A stretch of DNA of 64,000 nt from Siphonodentalium dalli. Lineage: Eukaryota; Mollusca; Scaphopoda; Gadilida; Siphonodentaliidae. How positions within the stretch are numbered: the stretch's first letter is position 1; each line of letters begins with the position of its first letter. Made by a program: the position numbers and the translations under genes. The notes below the pieces were generated by a model, which saw only the letters and a program-made list of their open reading frames with translations, searched no databases and had not been told where the DNA came from. Below are positions 1,700 through 60,000 of this stretch, in pieces. Location: NCBI GenBank assembly GCA_032622095.1, contig CP136065.1:36738732-36802731 (forward strand). Direction: 5' to 3'.

Positions 1700-4600
1700 T
1701 GGCTTACAAGGCTTGCCAATGAACTGAACATGCATTAGGTTATTGCATGCACTTTTAATACACAGGGCAAGGTAGATTACATCATTTTATAGATATTCTA
1801 AAATTTCTAGTTTGTGAAAACTATAATTAAAGCCATATTGTATGAACCCTGTCTAACCAACTGAACTATGAACTATAGACATGTTATCATTTTTATTATC
1901 AGAGACATGCCTTCTGCCAAGATATAGCCTTATACATTATAAACATGCAAATAGTTGCTTCATTTGGGCTAACTTCCATCATTTAGTGAGTCAAACATGA
2001 GGAAATTCTCTTAGTTTGAAAGTTGTAGCAAGCCTGGCCCGGTGAGTTGATGTCACAAACATCAAATATTGTTACTTCTTGTCAGATGGACATTCCTGCC
2101 AATAAATTAAACATTTCTCATTGCAACTGTATGCATTTTAATACACAGAGCCTGATATAAATTACACCATTTGATGGATATTTTATTAAATAGTCTGTGG
2201 AAACAACATAAAAGCCATATTCTATGCATCCCTGTATAGCCAAAAGAAATTAAACTATGGATATTTTATTGTTTATTTGATCAGAGACATGTATTCTGTT
2301 GAGATATATGTTAAAAACATGCAAATAGTGGTTTCATTTGGGCTTGCTCCCATAAATTAGAGAGTCAGACATGAAGAGATTCCCTTATTTCAAATTTATA
2401 AGATGCCAAGCCAGCTGAAATGGTGTATCAAACCTCAAATGGCAGTATTTCTTATCAGATGGACATCTCTACCAATAAATTAAACATTTCTCATAGTCAT
2501 TGCATGCATTTTAATATACAGGACAAGTTAGAAAACATCATTTGATGGATATTTTACTTAAAATAGTCTGTGGAAACAACCTAAAAGCCATATTGTATGC
2601 ATCCCTGTGTAGCCAAAAGAAATTAAACTATGGATATTTTATTGTTTATTTCACCAGAGACATGTATTCGGTTGAGATATTGCCTTATATATGTTATAAA
2701 CATGCAAATAGTGGCTTCATTTTGGGCTTGCTTCCATAATTTAGAGAGTCAAACCTGAAGAGATTCCCTTATTTCAAATTTGTAAGATGCGAAGCCAACT
2801 GAAATGGTGTATCAAACCTCAAATGGCAATATTTCTTATCAGATGGACATCTCTACTAATAAATTAAACATTTCTCATGGTCATTGCATACATTTTAATA
2901 TACAGGACAAGGTAGAAACATCATTTGATGGAAATATTAATTAAAATAGTCTGTAAAATCTACATAAAAGCCATATTGTATGCATCCCTGTATAGCCAAA
3001 TGAAATTAAACTATGGATATTTTATTGTTTATTTCATTAGAGACATGCATTCTGTTGAGATATAGCCTTATATATGTTATAAACATGCAAATAGTACCTT
3101 TATTTGGGTTTGCTTCCATAATTTAGAGAGTCAAACCTGAAGAGATTCCCTTATTTCAAATTTACAAGATGCCAAGCCAGCTGAAATGGTGTATCAAACC
3201 CCAAATGACAGTATTTCTTATCAGATGGACATCTGTACCAATAAATTAAACATTTCTCATAGTCACTGCATGCATTATAATATATAGGCCAAGATAGAAA
3301 ACATCATTTGATGGATATTTTACTTAAAATATTCAGTGGAAACTACATAAAAGCAATATTGTATGCATCCCTGTATAGCCAAATCAAATTAAACTATGGA
3401 TATTGTATTGTTTATTTCATCTGAGACATGTATTCTGTTCAGATATAGCCTTATATATGTTATAAACATGCCAATAATGGCATAATTTAGGCTTTTTTTC
3501 CATAATTTAGAAAGTCAAAGCTGAATAAATTCCCTTATTTCAAATTTGTAAGATGCCAAGCCAGCTGAAATGGTCTATCAAACCTCAAATGACAGTATTT
3601 CTTATCAGATGGACATCTGTACCAATAAATTAAACATTTCTCATAGTCACTGCATGCATTATAATATATAGGACAAGGCAGAAAACAACATTTGATGGAT
3701 ATTTTACTTAAAATAGTCTGTGGAAACAACCTAAAAGCCATGTTGTATGCATCCCTGTATAGCCAAAATAAATTAAACTATGGATATTTTATTGTTGATT
3801 TCATCAGAGACATGTATTCTGTTGAGATATAGCCTTATATATGTTATAAACATGCAAATAGTGGCTTCATTTGGGCTTGCTTCCATAATTTAGAGAGTCA
3901 AACCTGAAGAGATTCCCTTATTTTAAATTTGTAAGATGCCAAGACAGCTGAAATGGTGTATCAAACCTTAAATGGCAGTATTTCTTATCAGATGGACATC
4001 TCTCCCAATAAATTAAACATTTCTCATGGTCACTGTGTGCATTATGATATATAGGGCAAGGTAGAAAACATTATTTGATGGATATCGTACTTAAAATAGT
4101 CTGTGGAAACTACTTAAAAGCAATATTGTATGCAGCCCTCTATAGCCAAATGCAATTAAACTATGGATATTTTATTGTGTATTTTATCAGCGACATGTAT
4201 TATGTTGAGATATAGCCTTATACATGTCATTAACATGCAAATAGTGGCTTCATATGGGCTTTCTTCCATTATTTAGAGAGTCAAATCTGAAGAAATTCCC
4301 TTAGTTTGATATTTATGATCCCATAATCCCATGAAATGGTATTTTAAACCTCAAATGTCAGTATTTCTTATCAGATGGACATATCAACTAATGAATTAAA
4401 CATTTCCCATGGTCATTACATGCATTTTAATATACAAGGCTATGTAGAAAACATCATTTGATGGATATTTTACTTAAAATAGTCTGTGGAAACTACATAA
4501 AAGCAATATTGTATGCATCCCTCTATAGCCAAATGCAATTGAACTATGGATATTTTATTGTGCATTTTATCAGAGACATGTATTCTATTGAGATATAGCC

Positions 4601-5095
4601 TTATACATGTTACTAACATGCAAATAGTGGCTTCATTTGGGCTTTCTTCCATAATTTAGAGAGTCAAAGCTGAATAAATTCCCTTAGGTTTCAAATTTAA
4701 AAGATACCAAGCCAGCTGAAATGGTGTATCAAACCTAAAATGTCAGTATTTCTTATCAGATGGACATCTCTACCAATAAATTAAGCATTTCTCATGTCCA
4801 TTGCATGCATTTTAATATATAGGACAAGGCAGAATACATCACTTGATGGATATTTTACTTTAAATACTTTGTGGAAACTAAATAAAGTCACATTGTATGC
4901 TTTCCTATATTGCCAAATGAAATTCAACTATGGATACATTGGATATTGTATTGTTTGTATCATCAGAGACATACATTCTGCTAAGATATAGTCTTTTGTG
5001 TGTTATAAACATACAATATAGGTGCATGGCCTCATTGGGCTTGCTTTCATAATACAAGAGAGTCAACTCTGAAGAAATACCATCGGTTTGAAATT
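1700..5095. repeat. 383 bp satellite array, about nine copies
   Basis: The phrase CTTATCAGATGGACATCTCT or a close variant starts near 2078, 2451, 2835, 3217, 3601, 3984, 4367 and 4752. The spacing is 373, 384, 382, 384, 383, 383 and 385 bp. A further diverged partial unit precedes the first. Each monomer also contains TAAATTAAACATTTCTCAT, a stretch around TGCATTTTAATA, and AATTTAGAGAGTCAAAC. The outer units are the most diverged, as expected for a tandem array kept uniform in its centre. Short open frames in some units are not conserved between units, so I read the array as non-coding. Confidence 0.93.
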
Positions 5096-15718: not shown

Positions 15719-15814
15719 TGCAGAATGAGGTCCCCAGAGGGGGGATTTAGTGATGCTATCCCGCATAGCGGGCTAGCTTCACAAAATTCACCCTCTGGGG
15801 ACCTAATTCTGCAA
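15719..15814. repeat. Terminal hairpin, left
   Basis: The arm TTGCAGAATGAGGTCCCCAG pairs with its complement at the other end, and pairing continues almost to a tiny loop at CCCGCATAGCGGG. The stem is about 45 bp with few mismatches. Confidence 0.85.
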
Positions 15815-16007
15815 GGCCTTATCTGCTATTGGAGACAAAGACTCAGACTGAAGTTCCAAAATGGTGAATATTGTGATGCACACCCATTTGGAACCTAGAT
15901 TATGAAATGAATCGTCTGCCAATTTGGGGATATATAAAAACTAAAATAAAAAAGAAATAGAATAGAAATTTGATAATATTGGAACAATCCAGAGAATATA
16001 AGGACTA

Positions 16008-16103
16008 AGCAGAATGAGGTTCCCAGAGGGTGAATTTGGTTATGCTAGCCCGCTATGCGGGATAGCGTCACTAAATTCACCCTATGGGACCTCATTCTGC
16101 AAA
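16008..16103. repeat. Terminal hairpin, right
   Basis: An inverted copy of the hairpin at 15719, with the central palindrome CCCGCTATGCGGG and the same GCAGAATGAGG ends. Confidence 0.85.
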
Positions 16104-16300
16104 TGACAGGCACCTTATTCTCATGCTTGCATAATTTATATATACGGCACGGGCATCGCGAAAACATGCATTAGTTTTATGCCGAAACCAGAAAAACGTC
16201 ATAATTTAAAGCGCTCTTTATTATCTACCGTATTTGGAAATGAAAGCATGGACGCTTGTTATAAGAGACGATCCTTGGAACTTTTACTGTCCTGATAAAA

Positions 16301-18513: not shown

Positions 18514-19032
18514 TTAAAGGCACGGGCGGTGTTCGTTGCAGAAATATTCATATTTGTTCAAATCGCCATCAACGGAAGGAATATTAAAATATATATAGTT
18601 TTGTTCATATGCCAAACATAATCAGCGCGTTAATAGTATGTTGTCGTCAAGACGTACGATGGTGTACGTAAACAAGAACCTTCTCGTATTTACAGAAGTT
18701 TTGCTTCTGTTTACATAACACAGCGCAATTGTTTTGGTTAATCACACACAAATGATATAAACGCTCCTTATTATTTCCATATCAGGAAAACAGTAACAAA
18801 TAACGCTCTTTATGTTTACCATATCCGGATCTAAACAAAAGCCAGGTTTTGTAACGTTTTTTGCCTCTGTTTACACAACAAAGGAAAAACGTTTGACAAT
18901 AACATACTGTTTATGCCATATTATAAGAACAAGGTCTGTCTATATTTTACTATTCTTTCTGTTTATGGCGGTTTTTGACGGAGCTGAATATTTTAACAGC
19001 ATACCCACAGCCAACGCCGCCCGTATCTTTAA
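18514..19032 (+). mobile_element. TTAA-flanked MITE, copy 1
   Basis: The element starts TTAAAGGCACGGGCGGTGTT and ends GCCGCCCGTATCTTTAA, so TTAA is present at both edges and the termini are inverted. The interior has no frame and contains two copies of the ACGCTCTTTAT-type motif (18761 and 18801). Copies 2, 3 and 4 in this window share its full length. TTAA target sites are typical of the piggyBac and Kolobok superfamilies, but I cannot assign it without a transposase. Confidence 0.85.
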
Positions 19033-19557
19033 AGCATCATTCATCGCATTTTCCCGGCTATTAGTTTATAGATATGTATTTCCCGTCCAAAACCATGGTG
19101 TTCAAAATAGCACAGTACGTGTATAATAACATTAATCAATAAAACTTAGGATATGATTTTGGCTGCAAACTTGGAGCTTTTGGGTGCAAGTTCCGCAAAT
19201 ACAATTTTCTTCATCGTCGAGTTGTATTATTTTCTTTTTTTCGATTTAATTCAGAAACAATGATGGTTAGTCTTTTGTTGAAAATGTTCATAATGTAAAA
19301 ATATTAAGTAGTTAACATCACCATGTCATAATTCGTATTCATATTCATATCATTCGGCGGCTCAGTCGGCGAATGTGTCTACGCCTCCCGTGTGCATAAA
19401 CTACGAACTGATGTATTTAATTTCATATGTCCAGTTTTGAAAATACATTATAAATAACGCAACGCCCTACCAAGTCCATAACTGCAGAAACCTACATTTT
19501 TTATACATATCTAAGTTTGACTTGACATGACTAGAGATTCCGTCTATTGAAACTTAC

Positions 19558-20013: not shown

Positions 20014-20510
20014 TTAAAGGCACGGGCGGCGTTCGTTGCATAAATATTAACTTTTGTTCAAATCGCCATCAACAGAAGGAATATTAAAATATATATAGTT
20101 TTGTTCATATGCCAAACATAATCAGCGCGTAAATAGTATATTGTCGCCAATACGTACAATGGCGCACGTAAACAAGAGCCTACTCGTGTTGTAGAAGTTT
20201 ATTGGTTAATCACACACAAATGGTATAAACGCTCTTTACTATTTCCATATCAGGAAAACACTAACAAGTAACGCTCTTTATGTTTACCATATCCGCATCT
20301 AAACAAAAGCCATGTTATGTAAGGTTTTTTGCCTCTGTTTACATAACAAATGAAAAACGTTTGACAACAACATACTGTTTATGCCATATTTCTGATTGTT
20401 ATAAGAAGAAAGTCTGTCTATATTTTACTATTATTTCTGTTTATGGCGGTTTTTGACGGAGCTGAATATTTTAACAGCATACCAACCGCCAACACCGCCC
20501 GTGTCTTTAA
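20014..20510 (+). mobile_element. TTAA-flanked MITE, copy 2
   Basis: Same orientation and same full length as copy 1, with TTAAAGGCACGGGCGGCGTT at the left and CGCCCGTGTCTTTAA at the right. By eye it is about nine-tenths identical to copy 1 and closer to it than to copies 3 and 4. Motif copies lie at 20229 and 20271. It sits upstream of the minus-strand exon at 19558-19735. Confidence 0.85.
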
Positions 20511-21885: not shown

Positions 21886-22015
21886 GATACCGCCCATCAT
21901 CTCTTAGTACTATGCATGTATGTGTTTTTTTCTGTGTATTAAAATACTTTATGTAAATCATATGTATAAAATTGAATAATACAAATTATAAAATAAAAAC
22001 AAAATTAATTCACTT

Positions 22016-22660
22016 GATCCCTGACAATGGTAGTCCACATGGGTGGATGAATGGTAGTGTGTAATAGTAAGCATGGGGGTAGTCCACATGGGTGGATGAA
22101 TGGTAGTGTGTAATTAGTAAGCATGATGGTAGTCCACATGGGTGGATGAATGGTAGTGTGTAATAGTAAGCATGATGGTAGTCCACATGGGTGGATGAAT
22201 GGTAGTGTGTAATAATAAGCATGATGGTAGTCCACATGGGTGGATGGGTGGTAGTCCACATGGGTGGATGAATGGTAGTGTGTAATAGTAAGCATGATGG
22301 TAGTCCACATGGTGGATGAATGGTAGTGTGTAATAGTAAGCATGCTGGTAGTCCACATGGGTGGATGGATGGTAGTCCACATGGGTGGATGAATGGTAGT
22401 GTGTAATAGTAAGCATGATGGTAGTCCACATGGGTGGATGAATGGTAGTGTGTAATAGTAAGCATGATGGTAGTCCACATGGGTGGATGAATGGTAGTGT
22501 GTAATAGTAAGCATGATGGTAGTCAACATGGGTGGATGAATGGTAGTGTGTAATAGTAAGCATGATGGTAGTCCACATGGGTGGACGAATGGTAGTGTGT
22601 AACAGCAAGCATGATGGTAGTCCACATAGGTGGATGAATGGTAGTGTGTAATAGTAAACA
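22016..22660. repeat. 49 bp minisatellite
   Basis: The unit carries GGTAGTCCACATGGGTGGAT followed by GAATGGTAGTGTGTAATAGT. It repeats with 49-50 bp spacing (for example 22033, 22082, 22132, 22181), with two places where only the first half is repeated. A lone diverged unit lies at about 21637-21690. Three long minus-strand frames across the block (up to 218 codons) arise because stop codons are absent from the unit. They are low-complexity and I do not call them genes. Confidence 0.93.
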
Positions 22661-23319
22661 TTGCAATACATTACGTTTTCTCAATTAATGAAAAGAAATA
22701 TGTAATGTGCATTATATGTAATTCAAAGTACCATAATGCATTACTTCATAAACATTCATTCATGCAATTCAATTGCATTTGTATTACTCTTTGAAATACT
22801 TAATATGTCCTCGGTGTCTTTCAGGAATAAGTATGGTCATCTTAAAAGTGAAAATTTAATACAATGATCCTATATGTTTTTTGAAATAAGGTTTTGACCA
22901 ACATTAACAACAATAATTATGAATACATAGTGAGTGCTGTCATAGCTATACTTCTGTTGTTTCAAGAAAATAGAATTTCCCACTTTTGAGTGTGTAATAA
23001 GTAATAGCACAACGGTTCCAGTTTAACTGGTATATGTAATGTGTATGCTTTGTATTAAACTGCAGAAGTAGATGTCTGTACAGTTATGACTTCACACACA
23101 TCAGGATTGGCTGCTGTTTAGCTCATTCACGAATCAGATATATGTATGATCTCTACACAAACAATAGTATAGTCATAATCCCCTACTCCCTTAGCGAGTT
23201 TGAGATAATTTAGGTACACCGATAACAAAGAACTAGTTTCCTTTGACACAGGGTTAGGAGTACATGTAGGTTCTACTGTTTTCAATTATTTTAAGTGTGA
23301 GTGCTTTATTTAAAAAATA
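22661..23319. other. No gene recognised
   Basis: The segment is AT-rich with nothing supportable. Confidence 0.35.
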
Positions 23320-29584: not shown

Positions 29585-31273
29585 ACTCTTATCATGGTAT
29601 TCCAAAGAGGCATAAACGCAACAATGACATCATATGTAATGATAGAATGTATCTCATATGTAGCCGAAAGTAAACAAAACTGTATAGTCTGTTTCTAGAT
29701 GTTTGGAAGGCATTTGATACCGTCTGGATCAACGGATTATTATACAAGCTGCACGCATGTGGGTTCAGAGGAAATTTACTTCGATTGATGCGCGAACTTC
29801 TGACCAACGTCACATGCTCTATTCGTCACAATAACGTTTTATCCAGGTGGTTTGATGTGAGACAGGGAGCCAGACAAGGGGGTGTCCTCTCCCCTTTGTA
29901 CTATATGATCTACGTCGACGAATTAATACATATTCTTGCAAACTCACCATTCGGCCTGAACATGCTCGGTGTTAATTGTACGTGTCCAACCCACGCAGAT
30001 GACATGGTTCTATTATCACTAAATAAATATGGCTTATCAGCGCTTTATGATATTTGCAACGAGTACAGCAAAAAATGGCGGTATAAATATAATCCATCCA
30101 AATGCACTATAGTAGTATTCAATGAAACTAAAGCAGAATTTTCGCATCAAAGTCGTCTTTGGAACCTAGGAACCTCAGATATCAAAGAAAGTACGAACAC
30201 CACTCATTTGGGTATCTCACTTGACAAGTACAACTTCAACGGGATTTTCACTGATCACATATGCGATAAGACCCGTAGCACGTTTATGATGTTGAACAAT
30301 GCTGGACTCTATCCCGGTGGTATGACCCCCAAAAGTTGCTCGTTAATTTATTCATCAGTGGTTATACCAAAATGTCTGTACGGCTCTGAATTCCTCTGGA
30401 ATTTAAATCAAACTCACATTGATCGACTTGAGAGAACACACAGATTTTGTTTAAAATATTACCAGGGCCTTCATCGTCGCACAAAAACGGTTATAGCTCA
30501 AGGATTGGTTGGAACTTCATCTATGGTGTCACTTATCGAAAAACGTAAATTGTCATTCTTCGGCTCGTTGTGCAACTTAAAAGTTTCCAAAACAGCAAAG
30601 CAAGTATTTCTTACTCGCTTATATCAGTACACCATAGGTGCTTCAACCTCTCTATCTAGTTACTCGTCTGACATATTCTTCGTCCTTAGTAGATATAAAA
30701 TGACAGAGACCATTGTGAACTACATCGAAGATTCAATATTCCCGAAGAAATCTACTTGGAAATGTGCGATAAATGAATCATGGTCAAGAGTTAATAGAGA
30801 ATATTGGGAAATGAGCTTAAATGAGGATACTCGACTTGTCAGGTTCTCTGCCGTCCATCCAACGTTATGTATGTCCCGGCTATGGGAAAATTGCCGAATA
30901 TACCCAGCCCATAAAAGATCATATCTACTTATTGCACGCCTTATTTGTATCCTGCAAAACAAATGAAGAAACCTGCGTATTTTGTAACAACAAACATAAA
31001 GATCTTGTAAAACATGCCTTAATCGAATGTTCTTCCATTTGCGACGATCGAAATGCCTTTGAATTCGAGCTACTAAACTTGTTTCATGTAGACATTTATA
31101 TGCAATATGACAAACTGGATGTAGAATCCAAAACGCGCGTTCTACTAACAGGTCTACATGAAAACATATACTGTGCCACCGAAGAAGAAAATGAACTAAT
31201 AGACTTTTTCGTGAACAAAGCCGCATTCCTCTGGAGAGTATATGTTGATCGACTGACGCCAAGTCCTGACTAG
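29585..31273 (+). pseudogene. LINE (non-LTR retrotransposon) reverse transcriptase, frameshifted
   Basis: The product would be a reverse transcriptase that copies element RNA at a nicked target. Visible blocks in order: a decayed N-terminal stretch; motif A FLDVWKAFDTVW near 29690; motif B QGARQGGVLSP near 29865; motif C HADDMVLL (usual YADD) near 29995; a thumb-like region with HLGISLDKYN; and a C-terminal CVFCNNKHKDLVKHALIEC (CX2C...HX4C) near 30980. The main frame runs 29785-30966 but already continues upstream to about 29675. At least two frameshifts are evident: one just before motif A (TTC TAG against TTT CTA GAT) and one near 30960, after which the plus-strand frame ending at 31273 continues the C-terminus. 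The CR1/Jockey/I superfamily is likely; the clade cannot be settled by eye. The HADD variant of the catalytic motif may itself be inactivating. Confidence 0.88.
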
Positions 31274-31592: not shown

Positions 31593-31883
31593 TCCCTGAT
31601 TTGGGTCCAACTCCGGCTTGGTCGTCTCGGAGTATGCTATTTCTCTGTATGTAAGTACGATATGGCTGTAGAATGGAATGTCTACTTTATGTAGTGCACG
31701 AGTGTGTGTATATGTGCATGTGTAGTTGGTTCATCATACATATTGAGACATGTGTTGTAGATATGTTTGTAATCATAAATTTGTTATACACTGTGTTATG
31801 TACCAAATTGTGTTTGTTTTCATAATATAAACATTTATATATGAATCTCCATATACGGAGGATAATAAAGATATATATATATA

Positions 31884-32395
31884 TTAAAGGTACGGTTGGC
31901 CTTGGCGGTGGGTATCCTGTAAAAATATTTCCACCCGTCAAAAACCGCCACAAACAGAAAGAACATCAAAATGTAGACAGACTTTGTCCGTATACAAATA
32001 AGAAATATCGCATAAACAGTATGTTATTGTCATTTGTTTGACCATTGTTATGTAAACAAAAGCATAAAAAGTTACTTTTCTGGTGTTTGTTTATATTATG
32101 ATGGTAAACATAAAGAGCGTTCTTTGTTGGTTAATTCCTGATATGGAACAAATAAAGAGCGTTTATGCCATTTATGTGTGATTAGCCAGTAGCATTGTGC
32201 TGTTTTCTGTAACACAATCAGGCTCTTGGTTAGGTAAAATATAGTAGGTCTTTATGATAACATGCTGTTTACGCGATAGTCATGGTATATATGAACGAAA
32301 CTGTATGTATTTTAATGTTTTTCTGTTTACGGTGATTGGAACAAATATGAATATTTTCGACAACTAAGGCCTCACGTGCCTTTAATGTGACGATC
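31884..32395 (-). mobile_element. TTAA-flanked MITE, copy 3 (inverted)
   Basis: It starts TTAAAGGTACGGTTGGCC and ends CACGTGCCTTTAA, in opposite orientation to the other three copies. The motif ATAAAGAGCGTT occurs at about 32109 and 32152. It is most similar to copy 4. Confidence 0.88.
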
Positions 32396-33148
32396 AATAT
32401 CTCGAAAATAACTGTCATCAGCGCATCATGCAAATCAGTAAAGTATTTGCATATCTATCAACTCAGATGAAATGTTACTCTCGTAACGCCCAAAGTATCC
32501 CAAGTATGGTACAGTGACTGCTTTTATTTAGTACAATATAAGTTGCTCCTGAGGACAAGCAAAAGTGGTATTGAATAATGTTAGATAATGGGCTGGTTGT
32601 CAGACTAATCCGGAAATAGTTAGAAATTATGGAATTGTGTGTATCCTGCACAATGACATAGGCTGATCAAAGTTGATAATTTATCAACTTTTTCAATTAA
32701 AACAGCTTATGAAATTGAACCAAAGGGGGAAATTTCCCAGTGATATCATAGGATTTTGTGCGGTTTTATACCGAAATTAGTGAAATTGGGAGGGGTGTCA
32801 ACAAATTGGGAGTAAAACAATAGCTTTTTCCAGGTTTGTGGGTGGTGGGACCCCGAAAATGTCAGATGCAATAAAACGGCATAACTTCCCACAACATCCC
32901 CTGTGTCATCAGTGATCTCCACATATGTCATTGCTCGTTTATTTCTTTCGAGATGCTTCTAGACATGATCTGTAGCAACACTGTGCAGCTGAGGTACGTT
33001 ACATCACAAATACTCAAAAAGTGTATATTCTGGCATTGCATGGTGGTGATATATTTTGACTTCCATATAGTTAGTTCACATAGCAGCGGGTGATTGTATA
33101 CAATACATGCATTACACCATTATTCATTTAGTTCTCACATGGCACTTT
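32396..33148. other. No gene recognised between outer and inner repeats
   Basis: A minus-strand 61-codon frame (32746-32931) has no recognisable family. Nothing else is supportable. Confidence 0.35.
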
Positions 33149-33520
33149 TAGTATGGTCGTTGAAGCTGACTTTGGGGGTCAACCCGGAAGAAATTGGATA
33201 CAAGCTGATTTTGGTGTCATTCGACGCGGAAAAGCTTCAGGAACAACATATCCAAAAGCCGCAAAAATCCGATCATGGGAAAATTCAGGATCCAAGATGG
33301 CGTAAAAGATGGCCGCCAAATGAATAATTTTCCAGTCAACGCACATTGACACGCAAACCCTCAGTGAATATGGAAAAATCTCACCAAAAACGGATTCCAC
33401 ATTGATAGTAACATATGTTAGAACATATATATAAAGAATGTTGTTGTCAATTGGGACGTATTTCTGTTAATATAACAGCCAAATTCGAGAAAATTATAAT
33501 TTTCAAGTATATATTTGTCT
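33149..33520 (+). repeat. Inner inverted repeat, left arm
   Basis: It matches the reverse complement of 37709-38082 with gaps. Shared blocks include CCCGGAAGAAATTGGATACA, TTTTGGTGTCATTCGACGCG, CAACATATCCAAAA, AAAATTCAGGATCCAAGATG and GAAAATTATAATTTT. Outermost, TAGTATGGTCGT compares with TAGTGTGGTCGT on the other side. A degenerate second unit of the same motif order (GTATCAATCTAACC...GTATCCAAAATTTGCC) follows at about 33565-33660, so each arm seems to carry tandem sub-repeats. Confidence 0.82.
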
Positions 33521-33857
33521 AAGACAACAGTCAATTATATTGGCATGTCATATTTTCTGGAATAAATTTGGTATCAATCTAACCGATAAAGCCACAGAAG
33601 CAACGTATCCAAAATTTGCCAAAATCCGCACATGGACAAGGATTTCAGAGCACTTTGAAATACAACACATGTTTGACTCTCAAATGCCGTTTTTATCAAT
33701 TTATTCAACCAGTTATGCACATTGACGAATTTATGTGCTTAATGTGTCTATATAATTTACTATAACTGCGATTTGTAAGTCCATACAGCGAACAAACCAA
33801 GTTTATGTGTATCACTGATATCTATATTAGCTGGTTGGCAATGTCGGTTCGTTCAAC
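33521..33857. other. Second, degenerate sub-repeat of the left arm
   Basis: The stretch 33565-33660 repeats the order of words found in the left arm. The rest shows no feature. Confidence 0.5.
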
Positions 33858-33975
33858 AATAAAGAGCGTTTTCTACAGAACACGTGTTTTGCTATACCTT
33901 TCCAGGAAATGTCATAAAGAGCGTGTATATAACAGAACAGAACATAACATAAAGAGCGTTTATAACAGAACACGT
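33858..33975 (+). promoter_or_regulatory. Cluster of three ATAAAGAGCG motifs upstream of the CxxC/HxxC gene
   Basis: AATAAAGAGCGTTTT, CATAAAGAGCGTGTA and CATAAAGAGCGTTTA occur at about 33859, 33914 and 33950. Two are followed by ACAGAACACGTG and one by AACAGAACAG. They lie 300-400 bp before the presumed ATG at 34259. The same motif is embedded in the TTAA MITEs. A regulatory or protein-binding role is inference. Confidence 0.45.
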
Positions 33976-34258
33976 GCTATATGGTTGTTCTCACAGATGC
34001 ACATAAAAGGTCTCGCCTATCGGCTGCTTTTTCGCATATAGCTTCGTTGCTTGTATTGTCTCATTCCGGCTGTGTATGTTCAAGTAGTAATACTTTGATT
34101 TGCAAACCACTGGATTGAAGGCTTATAACTTTTCTCCTGTTGAAACCTAACGGTGCCAACGTACGCAGGAGAACTGTTACTATACATATTCTATATTTCT
34201 ATCATTTAAATGTAGTGTCAGTCCATATATCAGTTGGTCTTGTATTGAATATATAGTT

Positions 34259-37200
34259 ATGGCAGAATTTTGCGAGCCGCAAGAAATTACGCAATTTCGG
34301 GATGACATGTGTGTTTTATGCCCATCGGGTTTTGATGATAAACCTCCCGTCATCGTGTCTAAGAAAGGCATTTTGACATTGATCAATTTCTGTGATAAAC
34401 GTGGGAGGCACGACCTGAAAGATTATCTGAATGAGCGCTATCAGATGACACCAGTCGGTAAAGTTCTTGTCCATTCGAATTGTCGTAGAGATTTCACAGA
34501 TCCAAAAAGGCGACACCGTTCTGTCGAAATAACTACCGAAGTACCTCCAAATAAACAACAGAGATCTGGTGTGTGACCGTTTGATTTCAAGACAGACTGT
34601 ATGTTTTGTGGTACGCCTGCCACTATAGATCATCGACATCCCGACAAATCAGGGGTGAGGCAAGTAACAACCCTCCCAATGCGGGACAATATCCTAAAAT
34701 TATGTGATAAAAGTGGGACCAAATGGGCATCCGATGTGCAGGATCGGTTGTATGGTTGTATAGACTTGGTAGCAGCAGAATCTGTCTACCACTCACGCTG
34801 TTATACTGATTTCCAGAAGGATAAAGAAAATCCAACATTGGTCGATAAGGCGAAAAGTGGTAGGAGATCGGACCAGGGAATGCAGCAATGGTTTGAGATG
34901 GTTTGTAGTTGGCTCGAAGCTGGTGCAGAATTATATACTCTGGGGGAGTTGCATGACAAAATGATTGAGTATGCGGGTGATTGTCATGTGTATAGTATGA
35001 AATGGCTCAAAGAGAAACTGCAGGACCACTAGGGAGTTTATATTGTTCGCCGAAGTTGAGGGACGGAACAATATAGTGTGTTTTCAGAACATGGCAAAGT
35101 TTATCATAAACGAAAAATGGTACTGTGATAAGATAGATAGTATTGAAGAGGAAACTGAAAGGATAATGTTGACAGCAGCAAGGACATTACGAGCAGAAAT
35201 AAGAGAGACTGAGTATGACACTAATTCATACCCAACCAGTGAAGATATATCTTCCATTGATCGGGGTCGACAGTGGGTTTCGCATCATTTGCACACGATG
35301 TTAAGTGTTTTGATTCTATCCGATTTGAAGATAAATAGCATTGGGCACTCCATAATTCAATCTGCTCGACCTCGATCTGTTATAACACCAACGCTCTTTG
35401 GTGTGGGTGTGGAGATGGATCACGTGTTCGGTTCAAAATGGTTGGTGAATGAGTTATCTAGGTTGGGGTTCTCCATTACACATGACGAAGTAGAAAGATA
35501 CAAACAGTCTGTCATCCAAACCGAACGTCCTGACGATATTCTAACCGACTATTTCCCCGGAACATGTACACAGTGGGTTGCCGACAATGTAGACCATAAC
35601 ATAGCAACTTTAGATGGTCAGGGAACATTCCATGGCATGGGCATGATAGCAATCTCTACTCCAAAAGATCAAACACAGCTTAGCCTCAGGCCACACACCA
35701 TTAACAGGTGCCAGCGTTCGAAGGTTGATGAGCTAGTTCGAGGTAAAGGAGTCCAGATATGCCATTATGTTGATTCTGCCGGTAAAGGCCTTTCATCGTT
35801 GTCTTACAAACCTTTGCTTCAACTGATTACTCCACACACATTGCCCCCAGAGCTCAACACTGATCTACTGTGACATTCAGGGTGGTTTGTGAACCAATCT
35901 ACAAAGCCTCGGACAAATTGGTCGGGCTTCATGTAATATATTACGACTGATGACCAGAAGTGCCCAACGAAGTCTGGTGTTCTGTTTTTGCCGATTATAG
36001 ATTTGAATCCGTCCGATGAGGATTGTATATATTCAACTCTCCTTTATGTTCAGCGTCAAGCGACCAAACTAAAAATCCTGACACCATGTATCACATTTGA
36101 TCAGCCATTGTGGATAAAGGCCACGAATATTATAATGACCAAGTCCATGAATATAGTCTGCAGACTGGGTGGCTTTCATGCCATTATTAGTTTCATGGGT
36201 AGTATTGGTTCACTAATGAAGGGTTCGGGTTTGGAAGAGGCTCTGGGGAATGTCTATGGCCCTAACACAGTTACACATATGATTTCTGGGAAGGCAATAT
36301 CAAGGGCAATGCGTGGACATTTCTTAAGTGATGCTGCTCTTACAAATAAGCTGATATCAGACATTGTGCCATCTACAGAAACAAGTACAAGTCCGACAAG
36401 CCCATGGGGTGGCCGAACAGTGCAGATTGAATTGGTGCTCGATGCTTCGCCTGATGCCACAGTAGCTATAAATCAGTCTGAAGAAAAAACAATACCTAGA
36501 ATCGAGAAGGTTGAGATGAACGCAATAAGTGATTTGTACAAATATATTGAAAGTAGAGTAATTCCTGCAAGTGCTGTTTCTGGGTCTCAACCATTGATGA
36601 AACTCGAGGAATGTTTGAACAAGTATTAATCGTTGCTTATTGAGAAATCTCCGACAGCAAAGTTGTGGGTTCAGTATTTGGAATATGTGCAAACGTTGAA
36701 GAATTTCATTAGAGCAGAGAGGACAGGAAATTGGAGTCTGCATCTCGCTACTGTGGGGCAAATGCTCAATCTATTTGCCGCAACCGGTCACGCCAACTAT
36801 GCCAAGAGCTGTCGACTCTATCTACAGCAAATGTTGGAACTACCTAATAAACACCCTTGGCTGTACAAATGTTTCGCCGAAAATGGGTTTCATGCTGTAC
36901 GTAGAAGCAATAGATTATGGGCAGGATTATCAACAGATCTCATAATAGAACAAGTCCTTACGCGTTCTATCAAAAGCAGAGGAGGTCTGACAAGAGGTAT
37001 GGGAATGACCGCATCTGTCCGAATGCAATGGATATATAGCATGCATAGGTGTGCCGAGATTCATGATGCCATGACCGAACTAACCAAACTTAGACATACC
37101 ACCAGTGAACAGCACGCGGAGTTCGGGGCAAGTAGGAGCAAACGTGACTCTGCTGATTTGATAATCATACAACGTTGGTTTAACGAACATGAACCTTTTG

Positions 37201-37496
37201 ATTTGAGTGAAGGTAAACTACGCTCCCTGTCGTCTGGGTTAACATCTAGTGGTGGGGACGGTGTTAACTGTATTGAATCTGAACGTGTCGGTTTTGAGAT
37301 CCACCAAAAGCTCAACAGCATGAGTATCACAGATGCCGCGATCAAGCGGAAGGATCAAATAAAATCTCTTGACCATTTATATCCTGGGATCAGAGTCGAG
37401 AATGATCGAATGCAATTCAACCCGACTGTGCTATTCTGACGATTGATAGCAATTGCACAACGCGAGAAGGACATTTATGTATCATCTGTATCATGA
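34259..37496 (+). pseudogene. Broken gene of an unnamed invertebrate repeat-amplified family with CxxC...HxxC modules
   Basis: A near-continuous coding region of about 1,075 codons. The ATG at 34259 starts a module with C18, C21, H72 and C75 (CVLC ... HSNC, then RDF). A second module follows: CMFC near 34598 and HSRCYTDF near 34790. Both have the layout CxxC, 50-70 residues, HxxCxxDF, suggesting two zinc-binding repeats. Downstream blocks include ITFDQPLWIKA, GSGLEEALGNVYGPNTV, FIRAERTGNWSLHL and STDLIIEQVLTRSIKSRGG. From memory these are typical of an uncharacterised protein family very abundant in mollusc, cnidarian and lancelet genomes. Defects: TGA at 34574, a frameshift between 35030 and 35043, TGA at 35871, TAA at 35934, TAA at 36627 and TGA at 37437. 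The stops look like single-base changes, so the copy is fairly young. Family members I recall continue further, so the C-terminal part may be missing. No DDE or other catalytic motif was recognised, and the function is unknown. Confidence 0.82.
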
Positions 37497-37708
37497 CTAA
37501 GTCAATGTAGCTTCCGTTTTGATTAAATAGTTTCCATATAACCCGGAGTGTGCGTGCTAATGGGCACTGACTCGAAATATCATCATTTGACCGCTTGTGC
37601 TATTTAAAAAAAAATTATATGTTGGTCTCGGTTCCTTTCTGCGTCAAAATGTACCAAAACTGCTTGTATTGAAATGTAGGATATGCTAATAATAGACATT
37701 TTTATTAG
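37497..37708. other. Spacer with second sub-repeat of the right arm
   Basis: Read on the minus strand, 37621-37680 gives AATACAAGCAGTTTTGGTAC and TTTTGACGCAGAAAGGAAC, a degenerate version of the word order in the right inverted arm. Confidence 0.5.
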
Positions 37709-38082
37709 AAGAATATTTGTATACACTTAAAAATTATAATTTTCCCGAATTCAGCGGCCATATTGATAGCCATCTGCCCCCAAAGACAACAAGCTTAACA
37801 GTATGCGTGTTCTGACATGTGCTACTTTCAATGTGGAATATGTTTTGGTGCGTAATTTTCCATAATTACCGAGGTTTCATGTGTTATTGGGCCCTAATGG
37901 GAAATTTACGTATTGTGTCAGCCATATTGGACGCCATCTTGGATCCTGAATTTTCCCATGAGCGGATTTTTGCGTATTTTGGATATGTTGTTCCTGGTGT
38001 TTTTCCGCGTCGAATGACACCAAAATCAGCTTGTATCCAATTTCTTCCGGGTTCAACTCTCCCACGACCACACTATTTCATC
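37709..38082 (-). repeat. Inner inverted repeat, right arm
   Basis: Inverted partner of 33149-33520. It begins 213 bp after the end of the broken gene and ends ACGACCACACTA. No clear target-site duplication could be defined outside the two arms. Confidence 0.82.
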
Positions 38083-38509
38083 TAATGTATCGGATTAAAA
38101 GTACTAAATCTGATTCGATGGGGCCCATATCATCATATTCCAACATTTTTAAAATGCCCCTTCAGTTATCAGAATCGATTATATTGCCCAAAAATAAAGC
38201 TAACCACAGTCAACTATAGTATAAAATAGTCCAAAACGTGTTATTTATCAACATTTTGTTCTACGAAATATGGCTGGATAGCTAACGCCAAGGCCACATC
38301 TTAGAGTTATCTATCGTCATCCGCAATTTGGTCAGAGACCGTCGATTGTGACGACTTTTTACCAGGCCACAATAACTACACATCTCGGGAAATAACAAAT
38401 TTTAAAATCGCTATCTGCATGATCACTTTGAGCTTTGATGGGTGGGTTCCTCGACTCAAATCAAATATTTTGTTACCCTCGAAGCCAAATATATCGTAAT
38501 TTGGGAGCG
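38083..38509. other. No feature recognised
   Basis: Spacer between the inner and outer right repeats. No gene seen. Confidence 0.35.
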
Positions 38510-39011
38510 TTAAAGGCGCGTGGGGCCTTCATTGTCGAAAATATTCATAATTGTTCCAAACACTGTAAACAGAAAAACATTAAAACGCATACAGTTTCGT
38601 TCATATATACCATGACCATCGCGTAAACAGCATGTTATCATAAAGACCTACTATATTTTACCTAAGCAAGAGCCTGATTGTGTTACAGAAGACAGCACAA
38701 TGCTACTGGCTAATCACACACAAATGGCATAAACGCTCTTTATTAGTTCCGTATCAGGAATTCACCCACAAAGAACGCTCTTTATGTTTACCATCATAAT
38801 ATAAACAAACGCCAGAAAAGTAACTTTTTATGCTTTTGTTTACATAACAATGGTCAAAAATATGACAATAACATACTGTTTATGCGATAATTCTTATTTG
38901 TATACGGACAAAGTCTATATACATTTTGATGTTCTTTCTGTTTGTAGCGGTTTTTGACGGGTGGAGATATTTTCACAGGATACCCACCGCCAAGGCCAAC
39001 CGTACCTTTAA
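38510..39011 (+). mobile_element. TTAA-flanked MITE, copy 4
   Basis: It starts TTAAAGGCGCGTGGGGCC and ends GGCCAACCGTACCTTTAA. Motif copies lie at 38731 and 38773. Reverse complemented, it matches copy 3 over its full length at about 94% by eye, clearly closer than either is to copies 1 and 2. Confidence 0.88.
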
Positions 39012-39821
39012 TTCGGATTATGTATCTTTAACTAATTCCCAAAATAGGCGTGATTAATAGTTTTCCACGTTTCGGAGTAATAGTGCAAAACATTTGTCTT
39101 GCCGGTCACGGGGTTAATAATAACGATACATAGCGCGGGAAATTAGCGTATCTAAACTTGGGCGCAAGTGAGTTGTTTACGAACACGTGACAGGTGGTTA
39201 GCCAATCAGGTATCGTAATTGGTTTGGAAGGTCACGTGTTCGTAGCAAAAATTTACTTCTAGCGTGACACTCGGTCTGTCAACTTTCTTAATAATTTTAT
39301 TATTAAAAATTATGTATTCATACGATGGTATATAGTTGGAGAAAATTTTATAAATCAAGTCGGTTCTTCGAATTAATGGATTTAACCCCATCACGTCACA
39401 TGTTTCGATTTAGGAACATTGGGTTGTTTATATTCATGTCAATTTTGAATGAAATATGTGTTTATGGTGAAATACATGTATAATTATATATATACATTTG
39501 AAATCGTCGGGTGTCTCTGTCATGAGTTATTGGAAGAATGTTTGGTTTTCGAATATATATATAAAACATATATTCAATTTGAAAGTAAAATACGGGCGTA
39601 ACAAACATAACTCGGCTTAGAGATTTTTCATTGCGTATGTTTTTGTTTTCTCAAACTGTCTGATAAAAATTAAGAACAAATATAAACGTGTCATGACAGG
39701 GTCACATCACAATTTTAAATTATTGTATTAGGTTTTATTTTTTTCAAAACGAAATGAGGACCAGCATTTCACCCCGTAGATGGAGTTCGCACAGGTCCTG
39801 GTCACAGATTTCCGCCATGAA
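39012..39821. other. No gene recognised
   Basis: The segment is AT-rich with short TA runs near 39490 and 39556. No supported frame. Confidence 0.35.
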
Positions 39822-54000: not shown

Positions 54001-57000
54001 TAGACGAGTCACACTTGACCAGTTTGCATTAAAGTCACCGTAGTCACGGTAGTCGTTACTCGCTATTCCTCGTTAGGCCTTTTTAGAAACATCACGTGTT
54101 GACAAAATTTAAGTGCGTGCATGTTTAAAGTGCCCTTGATTCAAATTGATTGATGTACTGGTATATACGATGACTGAAGATGGGGCGACTAACTTGTTTG
54201 ATGGAACCATCCGAACCAATCAGAGTGCTCTATGGGCGGGATTTATATGTGCTGTCATGGGCAGAGCAAATCACGTCAACAATTTATGCGGGACATTGCA
54301 GGTGTTATTAAACGCAAGTTCAACTTCTGAAATTGAGTTTGGAAAATTGAAATTGAGTTCCTTTGAGTCATCTTTGAGAATGCCAGCCCTGCCCTTAATG
54401 GAGCCCCACGCAAGCACACAGGTAGTGTGGGAACTTTGTCAATTTATCAATTATACCAAAAACTTAATTATGTCGACCTTTTCCACATAAATATACAATG
54501 CAGAAAACAGTAAATAAACTGTCAATTAAAACATAATAAAAGAAACACGTCGTCGGCATCAATTGGCGCTACTGTTCTATCGATATGATGGGTTGGTTAA
54601 AGAACTCAACATTCCACATTTTTATCCGATTTGATAGCCGGAAAATAACACCTGGTTCGTTCCGCATTCCGGCTATAGTTTTGAAATCGTACAAAAAATG
54701 AGAAAACGTGATGTGTTTTGGAAACAAGAAAACGCTGTAAATGTTCAATAAATGAAAGTATTGTCAACTACCCGCCAGCCAACAATAAATGGAAGATACA
54801 TATCAAACGGTAATATGACTCAATAATCTAGAAAGTTGTATTTAGAAAATTTCATTGATCAATTTGATGGATCACATGATTAGACGCTAAAAAATTAAAC
54901 TCAGTATGCATCCTGATGCTCAAAATACTGAGTTCATATTATGGAACTAATGTCACCTGTTTCCTATAAATAACATACTCAGCTACAACTCTGCAGCAAT
55001 AAAATCTTTCCGGATGCCAAATTAAAGAGTTTAAAACAGTTTTTTTACCATTAGCGACGAGTGACTCGTCGCCATCCATGTCGCCATTTTGTTTCTTAGC
55101 ACCGTGTGAAGGGAACCCATGTTCTGAAAACAAGTTCATGTGACATGTATTCCGAGATACTATTTGTTGCAGAAGGGAACGGGAAGATTCGGCTCGGTAT
55201 TTTTCGGTCGCAGGAAGATTCGGCCAGTCTATTGATCTAGTTAATTAGTGCAGGGATTGTGGCTTGTTGACAGCTTGGTCTTTGTCTTACAGTCTTACCG
55301 GTACTGAAAGAACATTTAGTTGTAACAATAACAGCTAATTGAAGCAATTGTGGGATCATTTACATGGGTCTTGATTAACTCAGTTGTTGTAATAACACAT
55401 AGTGATGTACTGATTATCGGATCGGGCCGATAAATGTGGTATCGGCAAGATATCGGTATCGACAAAATTTAGTCTCCCGACCGATATCGTCAACCGATAC
55501 ATGTCGCGTCCTTTGTGAACGTAGTTACACCAATTCCGACTTTAATATTGAATAAATGATGGGAATTTCCAGAAAAAATAGCGACTATTTTACCCACGGG
55601 TCAGCCCTCCATCACATACGGTGATATACCATGATGACAACATCGACAGGAGACTGCTGGTACACTCATGACCCAAATAAACAATTCAAAAGGTACATGT
55701 ACTGTAGTTCCGTATGCTTAATAATTAAAGTTAAAGCATAAACTGTATATAATTAAAATTACTTGCGAGTGCCGAGTAGCACATGTTGTAAGCGAATAAC
55801 TGACACCGCTGGCATTAGCGTGAGAATGGAATCTTCCTATGACTGAATCAGACTACCGGTATCATGTAGTGATGTATTCATGGGGGTGTGGAATTAATTC
55901 CATGTCACATGCGACAGTAAGTTGTCACATTGTTATTATCTTCCCAAGGCGGGTACCGGGCGGCAAGATCAAACGATTATTTGCATGCATTTGATGTCTT
56001 CAATTAGGAATCACTAATATGCCACGTGTTGACAGATGACACTAAACTAAAAATCAGTGTTTATAAATAGATGAGTCACACTTGACCAGTTTGCATTAAA
56101 GTCGCCGCAGTTGTGACTCGCTATTCCTCAATATATAGAAACATCACGTGTTAACAATATTTAAGTGTGTGTGTTTAAAGTGCTTTTGATTCAAATTGAT
56201 TGACGTTCTGGTATAGTTCTCGTCTCGTCCAATAAAGTATTTTATTTTATTTTATTTGGTATACAATGACTGAAGATGTAGGAGGTGACTAACTTGTTTG
56301 ATGGAACCATCCGAACCAATCAGAGTGCTCTATTGGCGGGATTTGTGTCTGCTGTCATAGGCAGGGAAAATGTCAACAATTGCAACATTGCAAGTGTTAT
56401 TAAACTCAAGTTCAACTTCTGAAAAAGATTGAGTTTGGCAAATTGAAATTGAAATTAAGTCATTGACTCAAATGGATTATGGACATCTTTTGAATGCAAC
56501 GAAATATTAAATCGTTTTGCCAGGGTTTTTGGGGAACGTAAACTAAACTTTTGCGACCAGGTTATCGGTTCTTGGCCGACAATATTTTGCAATTTAAAAG
56601 ACAAATTGATATGGAGTTTTGTTCACGTACAAGACTTATCGGTATCTGTATCGGATCGGCCGATAATCCTACTGAAAATATCGGCTATCGGCTTCCGATA
56701 ACCCCCGTATCGTTACATCACCAATAACACACTTCATTAGACGAATAATAAAAAATATGAAACATGTTTACACAAGCTGATAGAAGGTGTACCGTAGTGA
56801 AGTTCCCTTTTTATTAAATCTAAATAGTGACGATGTATAAAGAGCGTTTCTTATCATCTTATTTTTATTTATGTTATAAGGTATGAATAAAGAGCGTTTC
56901 CTATATAGTTTTTGTGATTCATTAAAAATGTATTTACCAGCTAAGTGGTTGTTCATTCGACATTGTTAAAATATACACCATTCAGAGAAACATACATACA

Positions 57001-60000
57001 TAAATAAACAGCGATTATTTATCATTGATATCATATCAGCATCCAAAGGATAATTCCGTCCTTTGCCAGTTAGTGCCATCGTGAACTGAGCGTGAAAAAA
57101 CTGAACGCCCGAGTAAAACAGTATTTTATAATTATAATTATTCGCCATGCATGCTTATTAATAGTAATTTCTTATATAGTGCTCGAACGTGATATTTGGA
57201 TTTACCACACAATGTGTAAATAATAACGATTTGTCCATGTAAAAACTATTCAAAATATATGATACAATTAGACTTTCTTTACCATAAACATAAAATAATA
57301 TCATGAAGAAAAAAAAACATGCACAAAACATCATAAAAGTAATAACTTGGAATGATTCATGTGAAATATTATACAAAGATACTAGTATGTCCACATAATT
57401 CACGAAAAACATACAAATAAACTTTCTTTATTATCAACATAAAATAATCGTAGCCTCCTATTTTGACTGAAATTTGTTGAAAACATGGCTGCCAGTGGCC
57501 ATCTTTGCATTTACTCTTTGCATGACTAAATCCTTTGGCACTCCCCTACAGACCACATCTCTCATTCGATTGTCACCAAACTTCATACGGATCTTCGGGA
57601 TGACCTCTAGATGATAGCCTCCCATTTGACTGAAATTTGTTTAAAAAACATAGCCGCCAGCAGCCATCTTGATTCTCTCTTTCCATGGCTAAATCCTTTG
57701 GCACGGGCTACAGGTCATACCTTTATTTGGTTCATTATGAAATTTGTCATGGCTGTTCACATTGACATGGAGATGGGAACGAGTCATTTTGGGGTCATTC
57801 GGCAAAAAATATGACTGTCAGCAGCCATCTTTTATTTCAAAATTCAATCCATTAGCTGGGCTAGAGGCCGGAGTGTTCATCTCATCATCATGAAATTTGT
57901 CATGGATTTTAATGTTGACATGTAGATGGGAACGAGTCATTTTGGGGTCATTCCGCCATAAAACATGGCCGCCGGCAGCCACCTTGTATTTTACTCTTCG
58001 CATGACTAAATCCTTTGGCACGTGCTGCAAGTCGTACCTCTGGTCGGATCATTATGAAATTTGTCATGGCTGTTGACATTGACATGTAGATGAGATGAGT
58101 CATTTTGGGAGTCATTTGACCATAAAACATGGCCACCGGCAGCCATCTTGGATTTTACTCTTCGCATGACTAAATCCTTTGGCATGGGCTACAATTCGTA
58201 CCTTTGGTCTCATAATCATGAAATTTGTCATGGATGTTAACATTCACATATAGATGGGAACGAGTCATTTTGGGGGCATTCGGTCATAAAACATGGCCGC
58301 TGGCAGCCATCCTCGATTGCTAGAGCTTGCATGACTAAATCCTTTGGCACGGGCTACAAATCATACCATTGGTCGGATCATTATGAAATTTGTCATGTCT
58401 GCCAATATTGACATGTAGATGGGAACGAGTCACTTTAGGGTCATTCAGCCTTAAAACATGGCCACCAGCAGCCATCTTGGATTTCAAAATTCAATCCATT
58501 AGCACGGGCTACAGGCTGTAGTGTTCGTCTGGTCATCATGAAATTTGTCGTGGTTGATGATATTGACCTGTAGATGGGAACTAGTCATTTTGGGATTATT
58601 CAGCCATAAAACATAGCTACCGGCAGCCATCTTAGATTTTACTCTTTGCATGACTAAATCATTTGGCACAGCTACAGGTGGTACCTTTGCTCGGATCATC
58701 ATGGCTGTTAGCATTCACGTGTAGATGGGAATGAGTCATTTTGGGGTCATTTGGCCTTAAAATATGGCTGCTGGCAGCCATCTTGCATTTTACTCTTTAT
58801 ATGTCTAAATCCTTGGGCACAACCTACAGACCACATCCCTCATCTGATCATCACCAAACTTCATACGGATCATCGGAGTGACCTCTAGATGGGGGCCATT
58901 AAAATTTTCTGAATTTTGTTGGAAAACATGGTGGCCAGCGTCCATCTTGGATTTTACTCTTTGTATTACTAAATCCTTTCCTACTGATGACACCCTACTT
59001 GTCCGATCATCACTAATCTTAACATGGATCTTCGGAATGACCACAAGATGGGAGAATTCTAGTTTTTCTGATTTTCATTTAAAAACATGGCTGCCATGGT
59101 TTTACTCTTTGTACCGGTATGACTTAATCCTTCAGCACACCCTACAATCAACATCTCTCATTCGATCATCATCCATCAGGTAACCCTGCAGCCTGCATTT
59201 TATTGCCATAGTTGACAGTGCTTAGCATTATGTTGTTGCAATTAATTGTTTCTGTTAACTAAAGAGTATTTTGAAGAACTGTTGTTGTTGTTGTAACTTG
59301 ATGATATGGGGACCGTCTGATCGGATTGAGTACCTTTAAGATCTACCTATATAAAAGCCAAGTGTTTGTGTCTGTGAGTGTCTGTTAGGGATCTGCGAAT
59401 CGGGGATTTTGCATCGAATGCAAAATTCACTAGATCTATACTATATAGCAATGCTAATCTCCTTAATCATCTGTTGGAACTTGTGTTTTTGTTTAGGAAA
59501 AATCATGACATACATGTAGGCAAGTCACTCTCAGTCTCATGGAGGGTTTTTGATATGTTGCATTGAATTTCTATCTAGCTGTGTCATGGCGAATATGACA
59601 CAAGAAGTGACAGCAAGACACTTGAAGACAGTTCAATCAACTTATCACAAACCCCATGGAATGGAAGTCACTTGTCTACATTATTTAATAAAGATAATAC
59701 AGATTTGACATGGGTACACCATTTGGCTATATGAGTGTTGTAGTCCGATACCAATGGTGGTTATCTGTTAAACTGTTCACCCCACAATAGATCAAACACC
59801 TACATCACATATTCACAGTAGTGTTAAATGTTATTAACAAGATTCAACGGATCGAAACTTAGTGCAATACACTCGACTTCTCGGGAAATAGAAACTGAAA
59901 GTAGGAAATTTATATGAATTTGTCGCAGATAACTGGTCGCACATGATGATGTTATTTAAAAACATAACAGACCGATTGTTCTAAGGTTGCTCACCGTTTC

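Follow-up and report, generated by a model that had tools for sequence, protein, structure and literature searches.

The locus at positions 31884-39011 of a 64,000-nucleotide stretch of Siphonodentalium dalli contig CP136065.1 (the whole stretch is called the window below) raises the question of whether a gene and the two pairs of inverted repeats nested around it move as one large transposon or lie together as separate insertions. The original prediction had treated gene and repeats as one possible mobile system, and this view held for the inner pair only. We found that the inner arms are the ends of a recurring unit, and form a single DNA transposon together with the gene, and that the outer repeats are separate insertions of Kolobok-like miniature inverted-repeat transposable elements (MITEs). 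Positions 33149-38075 very probably represent a recent, dead and non-autonomous copy of an Academ-type (AcademX-like) cut-and-paste transposon, from which the outer MITEs stand apart.

The inner arms are the ends of a recurring transposon

The mobile unit and its boundaries are as follows.

33149-38075, forward strand: mobile unit, copy of a probable Academ-type DNA transposon, 4,927 bp, ends TAGTATGG...CCACACTA; 20 other genomic copies align
33146-33148: left copy of the target duplication TTT, 3 bp
38076-38078: right copy of the target duplication TTT, 3 bp
33149-33552, forward strand: left terminal inverted repeat
37677-38075, reverse strand: right terminal inverted repeat

The genome was searched with positions 34300-34570, and 40 matches out of 138 candidates were scored. 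The matches at 98-100% numbered at least 40 and were spread over nine contigs. We examined 20 of the 40 scored matches, the most window-like, with 10 kb around each. Homology to the transposon was confined to window positions 33144-38082 in all 20, which gives a positive answer to the question, posed with the original prediction, of whether the inner arms alone form the recurring unit. These copies matched the unit 33149-38075 at 93-99% per aligned piece; L021 lacked the left part, and L019 and L022 each lacked an end. The two arms of the window copy aligned at 92% over a core of 138 nt (33181-33318 with 37916-38053) and at 79% over about 335 nt, with the alignment extending to 33552 and 37677, and the transposon ends read TAGT...ACTA on inverted repeats of about 0.4 kb.

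Ends were detected by script in the 21 copies, including that of the window, and L018, L019, L021 and L022 were dropped because an end was not detected. An exact 3-bp direct duplication lay outside the ends in every one of the 17 copies with both ends detected. These 17 copies represent 15 separate sites, with common flanks in the pairs L011/L012 and L026/L027. In both pairs the two members had the same 25-bp flanks on either side, so that segments had been duplicated over distances of about 0.62 Mb and 75 kb. The joined flanks of some copies matched uninterrupted repeats elsewhere. L028 sits inside a relative of another short inverted-repeat element, which occupies window positions 15720-16105 and has the ends GCAGAATGAGG.

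The transposase gene is broken and has lost its nuclease part

34259-37475, forward strand: broken transposase gene with two N-terminal Cys-containing segments and a putative DDE-type core, nuclease part missing (tblastn, homologues)
37474-37475: internal deletion junction, about 1.4-1.5 kb lost (XPG/FEN1-like nuclease and Cys-rich tail); present in 18 of the 20 other copies

What had been described as a 3.2-kb gene proved to be a remnant, interrupted by in-frame stops (34574, 35871, 35934, 36627 and 37437) and by a change of frame at 35030-35032. We found 365 homologues of it. Homology to relatives ran from about 34289 to 37475 and ended at or just before 37475 (tblastn, in the 8 of 27 relatives listed). 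In the relatives, a putative DDE-type transposase is fused to an XPG/FEN1-like nuclease, and the C-terminal part of one relative matched Exo1/FEN1/XPG structures. No helicase was present among the 20 Pfam families matched by the 27 relatives (E up to 1), many of which are incomplete proteins. A further protein, P0120, named as from a Sedimenticola metagenome-assembled genome, matched this animal transposase family (E 7e-163) and is probably host contamination of that genome.

At window position 37474, L020 and L028 were longer by about 1.43 and 1.52 kb, and their extra stretch encodes the nuclease part, with homology to residue 1274 of P0003. These two copies also shared a 1-nt loss that was absent from the other 19. 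The remaining 18 copies carried a deletion junction identical to that of the window; among them, L025 is long (6.65 kb) yet has the deletion plus another insert. Genome-wide, with at most one mismatch, 45 places showed the deletion junction pattern and 41 the undeleted one, and none showed either pattern read backwards.

Shared stops point to the spread of a dead lineage

The TGA at 34574 and the TAA at 35934 were present in the same 10 of the 20 other copies, and six of these ten also had the TAA at 36627. The TGA at 35871 was present in four copies, all of which, like the window, have lost 31 bp near 37594, and the TGA at 37437 was private to the window (none of 20). The frame change at 35030 was absent from all 19 copies that could be read at this position, and eight other copies had a common frame change at one P0003 codon (675/676). 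A tree of the 21 copies agreed with the nested order of the stops, and tblastn with P0003 revealed no single open frame in any of the 20 copies. Of the branches seen, that of the window copy is the most decayed, and the copy has since gathered private damage.

Because the same stops occur at different sites, each with its own 3-bp duplication, the stops predate the insertions, and the copies would therefore have moved in trans. We infer from this, narrowly, that a dead lineage was mobilised by an enzyme supplied from elsewhere. Deletion copies of the Ds and P-element kind keep both ends, lose coding sequence and spread in trans, and the window element appears to be analogous in all three respects. 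Unlike these derivatives, it is still 4.9 kb long, retains most of its dead gene and shows step-wise shared stops.

The following course of events would account for the two forms. A full-length element of 6.4-6.5 kb would encode a transposase in which Cys-containing N-terminal segments and a DDE-type core with a helical insertion are followed by an XPG/FEN1-like nuclease and, last, a Cys-rich tail. This enzyme would act on the inverted repeats of about 0.4 kb (TAGT...ACTA), and insertion would duplicate 3 bp. One ancestor would then have lost the nuclease part through an internal deletion, and its descendants would have kept spreading in trans by means of enzyme made elsewhere, gathering shared stops as they did so.

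Features of the element fit AcademX

We take the nuclease of AcademX elements to be of the XPG kind. AcademX has a DDE-type transposase followed by an XPG-like nuclease, and the relatives found here appear to have the same order; the nuclease is contained in the element in the relatives and, by homology, in two of the 20 copies. The available text of PMC10045372 describes AcademX with a nuclease in the same element and a target site duplication of 3-4 bp. The duplication here was exactly 3 bp in the 17 copies with both ends, unlike the 9-10 bp of AcademH. A nuclease-bearing transposase together with a 3-bp duplication thus fits AcademX, an assignment made by the features described in that text. 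Unlike AcademX, the window copy is dead and without the nuclease part. Academ elements average 5,565 bp and have been amplified in bivalves, according to the accessible part of PMC10294476, and the length here is near that mean. The inner part of the locus is a family of a known transposon kind.

The outer repeats are MITEs of a very common family

31884-32385, forward strand: outer left MITE; TTAA at both edges, Kolobok-type ends AG...CT; separate insertion, outside the transposon
38510-39011, reverse strand: outer right MITE; same subfamily as the left, inverted; TTAA at both edges; outside the transposon
18514-19032, reverse strand: MITE of the same family, second subfamily
20014-20510, reverse strand: MITE of the same family, second subfamily

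Alignment confirmed that an outer and an inner inverted pair are both present, as had been proposed. The outer pair (31883-32385 with 38510-39012) was 95% complementary over 503 nt, or 94.8% alike by global alignment. It is indeed oppositely oriented and bounded by TTAA, which lies flush at all four edges. All four MITEs of the window showed a TTAA target duplication at both edges (8 of 8 edges), with the ends AG...CT inside it. Kolobok-type MITEs share the TTAA duplication, and these ends fit the rule 5'-RR...YY-3' published for Kolobok (PMC9587614, in the portion available). The left outer copy has inverted halves, with a score of 46.5 versus 33 for the largest among 200 shuffles.

The two outer copies had also been said to resemble each other more than the copies at 18.5 and 20.0 kb. 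This is correct (94.8% versus 78-82%), but the latter two are themselves 92.6% alike, so the family simply has two subfamilies, an ordinary situation. A MITE belonging to the outer subfamily lies near locus L019; over 280 nt its identity to the left outer copy was 96.4%, slightly higher than that of the right outer copy (94.8%, over the whole length). Within L019 7490-8525 (gene orientation), the transposon copy ends within a few bases of a MITE start, and two MITEs are placed tail to tail. A central 17-mer of the MITE occurred at 19,543 exact places genome-wide, and its backward control at none. Because the family is so common, a MITE on each side of a transposon is unremarkable.

Alternative explanations

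Several observations weigh against a separate Academ-type transposon that spread after its gene had died, and each is given here with the explanation that it would favour. The first such explanation is one composite transposon spanning 31884-39011, in which the outer TTAA repeats serve as ends that carry the gene. The outer pair is inverted, 94.8% alike and flanked by TTAA on the outside; MITE stretches occurred somewhere in the 10 kb around five of the 20 other copies (L019, L023, L024, L026 and L027); and there is a published precedent in KolobokP, a composite-like element with ends of about 450 or 660 bp (PMC9587614, as far as its available text goes). In KolobokP, as here, short repeats with inverted ends of their own flank a gene, and solo ends are common. 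However, the same portion of that source gives the long terminal repeats of KolobokP as direct, and its interior as coding for a Kolobok transposase and a His-Me finger nuclease, whereas the outer repeats of the window are inverted, each bounded by TTAA at its inner edge as well, and unrelated to the gene between them. Five interior pieces gave no Pfam match to a His-Me finger nuclease or a Kolobok transposase, a Kolobok profile not being among the profiles compared. None of the 20 other copies had the outer pair around the gene within the 10 kb examined. MITE fragments lay on both sides only in L023, where they were in direct orientation and at other distances. Repeats near window positions 38094-38513 matched the flanks of some other loci. 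Most copies of the MITE lie away from the gene, its 17-mer having 19,543 places versus 86 (45 + 41) for the two junction patterns of the transposon, an outcome that the original prediction had named as refuting it. The private branch of the window transposon copy was 0.39%, versus a difference of 5.2% between the outer MITEs, and the ages therefore give no sign of a joint insertion. The composite unit was refuted in the sample of 20 copies, and we regard it as extremely improbable. The nest is a chance combination of two known element kinds, which agrees with the alternative offered in the original prediction, namely two MITEs flanking an unrelated element. Equally remote is a host gene or domesticated transposase that came to lie between repeats by chance: the protein family is long and conserved, but matches in the genome at 98-100% number at least 40 across nine contigs, all 17 two-ended copies agree in their ends and carry a 3-bp duplication, and the window copy is broken.

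The mobile unit would stand unchanged if its transposase came from another DDE superfamily, for example near KDZ or a DUF6589 group, rather than from Academ. Pfam PF20231 (DUF6589) matched three of the 27 relatives weakly (best E 1.2e-5, 24.7 bits versus a cut-off of 27), and the name Academ rests on described features. Nevertheless, a nuclease behind the transposase and a 3-bp duplication are the pair of features published for AcademX (available text of PMC10045372), and we consider another superfamily unlikely. These weak matches hint that DUF6589 proteins may be transposases of the same kind as that of the window gene. The DUF6589 match of P0061, a relative of the gene at 35001-37436, lies at residues 238-428. 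Somewhat less likely still is that gene conversion or duplication of loci, instead of transposition of a dead lineage, distributed the shared stops among the copies. Some loci are segmentally duplicated, as the common 25-bp flanks of L011/L012 and L026/L027 indicate, but the other two-ended copies have different flanks and 3-bp duplications of their own, and the groups of the tree agree with the shared deletions and stops.

The motif ATAAAGAGCG occurs in several unrelated repeats

33859-33958, forward strand: three ATAAAGAGCG sites, about 300-400 bp before the start of the open reading frame; 19 of the 20 other copies have one or more exact sites

The motif ATAAAGAGCG had been noticed in the outer repeats and before the gene, and both occurrences were seen. 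The window contained 13 exact sites, and 19 with at most one mismatch versus 3.06 expected, at locations that include 33859-33958, 32110-32161, 16212, 16456 and 56837-56896; sites were also present in L029-L036. Genome-wide, ATAAAGAGCG had 155,539 exact places versus 4,164 for the backward control, about 37 times more, and ATAAAGAGCGTT, whose 10-mer core has 155,539 exact places in 2.2 Gb, had 236,152 with at most one mismatch versus 16,817 for its control. The place lists behind these two counts are incomplete, lacking places known from the MITE 17-mer, and long same-strand runs in them were left out of account. The 92 sites in the sequence examined could be sorted by their unrelated flanks into 14 groups. 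These include the transposon and the MITE as well as two tandem repeats, of about 625 bp (L029, L033) and about 1,575 bp (L030); eight loci among these groups were hand-picked for a spacing unlike that of the MITE and are not a random sample. Since the motif occurs genome-wide in several unrelated repeats, it does not tie the MITEs to the transposon, as had been suggested. A shared transposase site is unlikely, the motif lying in the middle of the MITE but about 0.7 kb inside the transposon.

Across the 14 group representatives, the core and the TT following it stood out, with T in 12 and 13 of the 14; two scattered columns (-14 and +26) also reached 0.7-0.8 bits, as small samples may. Among CpG 10-mers in 68 chunks, AAAGAGCGTT, which is part of the box, ranked first with 7 chunks. 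Tentatively, ATAAAGAGCGTT could be a functional box to which a single abundant protein, host or domesticated, would bind. Such a short box, possibly a promoter box or a CENP-B-box-like site, would have been acquired separately by unrelated transposons, MITEs and tandem repeats. Three observations argue against a functional box. In flanks without the transposon, the 13 sites of the 10-mer formed three flank groups; at least three groups were reached by 20 of 72 CpG 10-mers of similar frequency, counting the motif itself and its overlapping words; and four of 18,419 CpG 10-mers occurred in more of the 68 chunks than the motif did, with several ties. The motif remains a lead, and possibly a new question separate from the transposon.

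Other features of the window and biological significance

An open frame of 430 residues at 29674-30966 has a reverse transcriptase domain (RVT_1, E 2e-21) and is probably the remnant of a long interspersed nuclear element. Tandem arrays lie at 1876-5016 (units of about 383 bp), 21977-22710 (49 bp) and 57480-59083 (155-165 bp).

The locus illustrates that two common types of element can mimic one doubly nested system, and the transposon family offers a clean, stop-by-stop record of a lineage that apparently remained mobile after the death of its gene. Should the ATAAAGAGCGTT box truly be common to unrelated mobile and satellite repeats, a pull-down could yield a protein that reads it, and such a protein would open the question of how this genome marks or uses its repeats.

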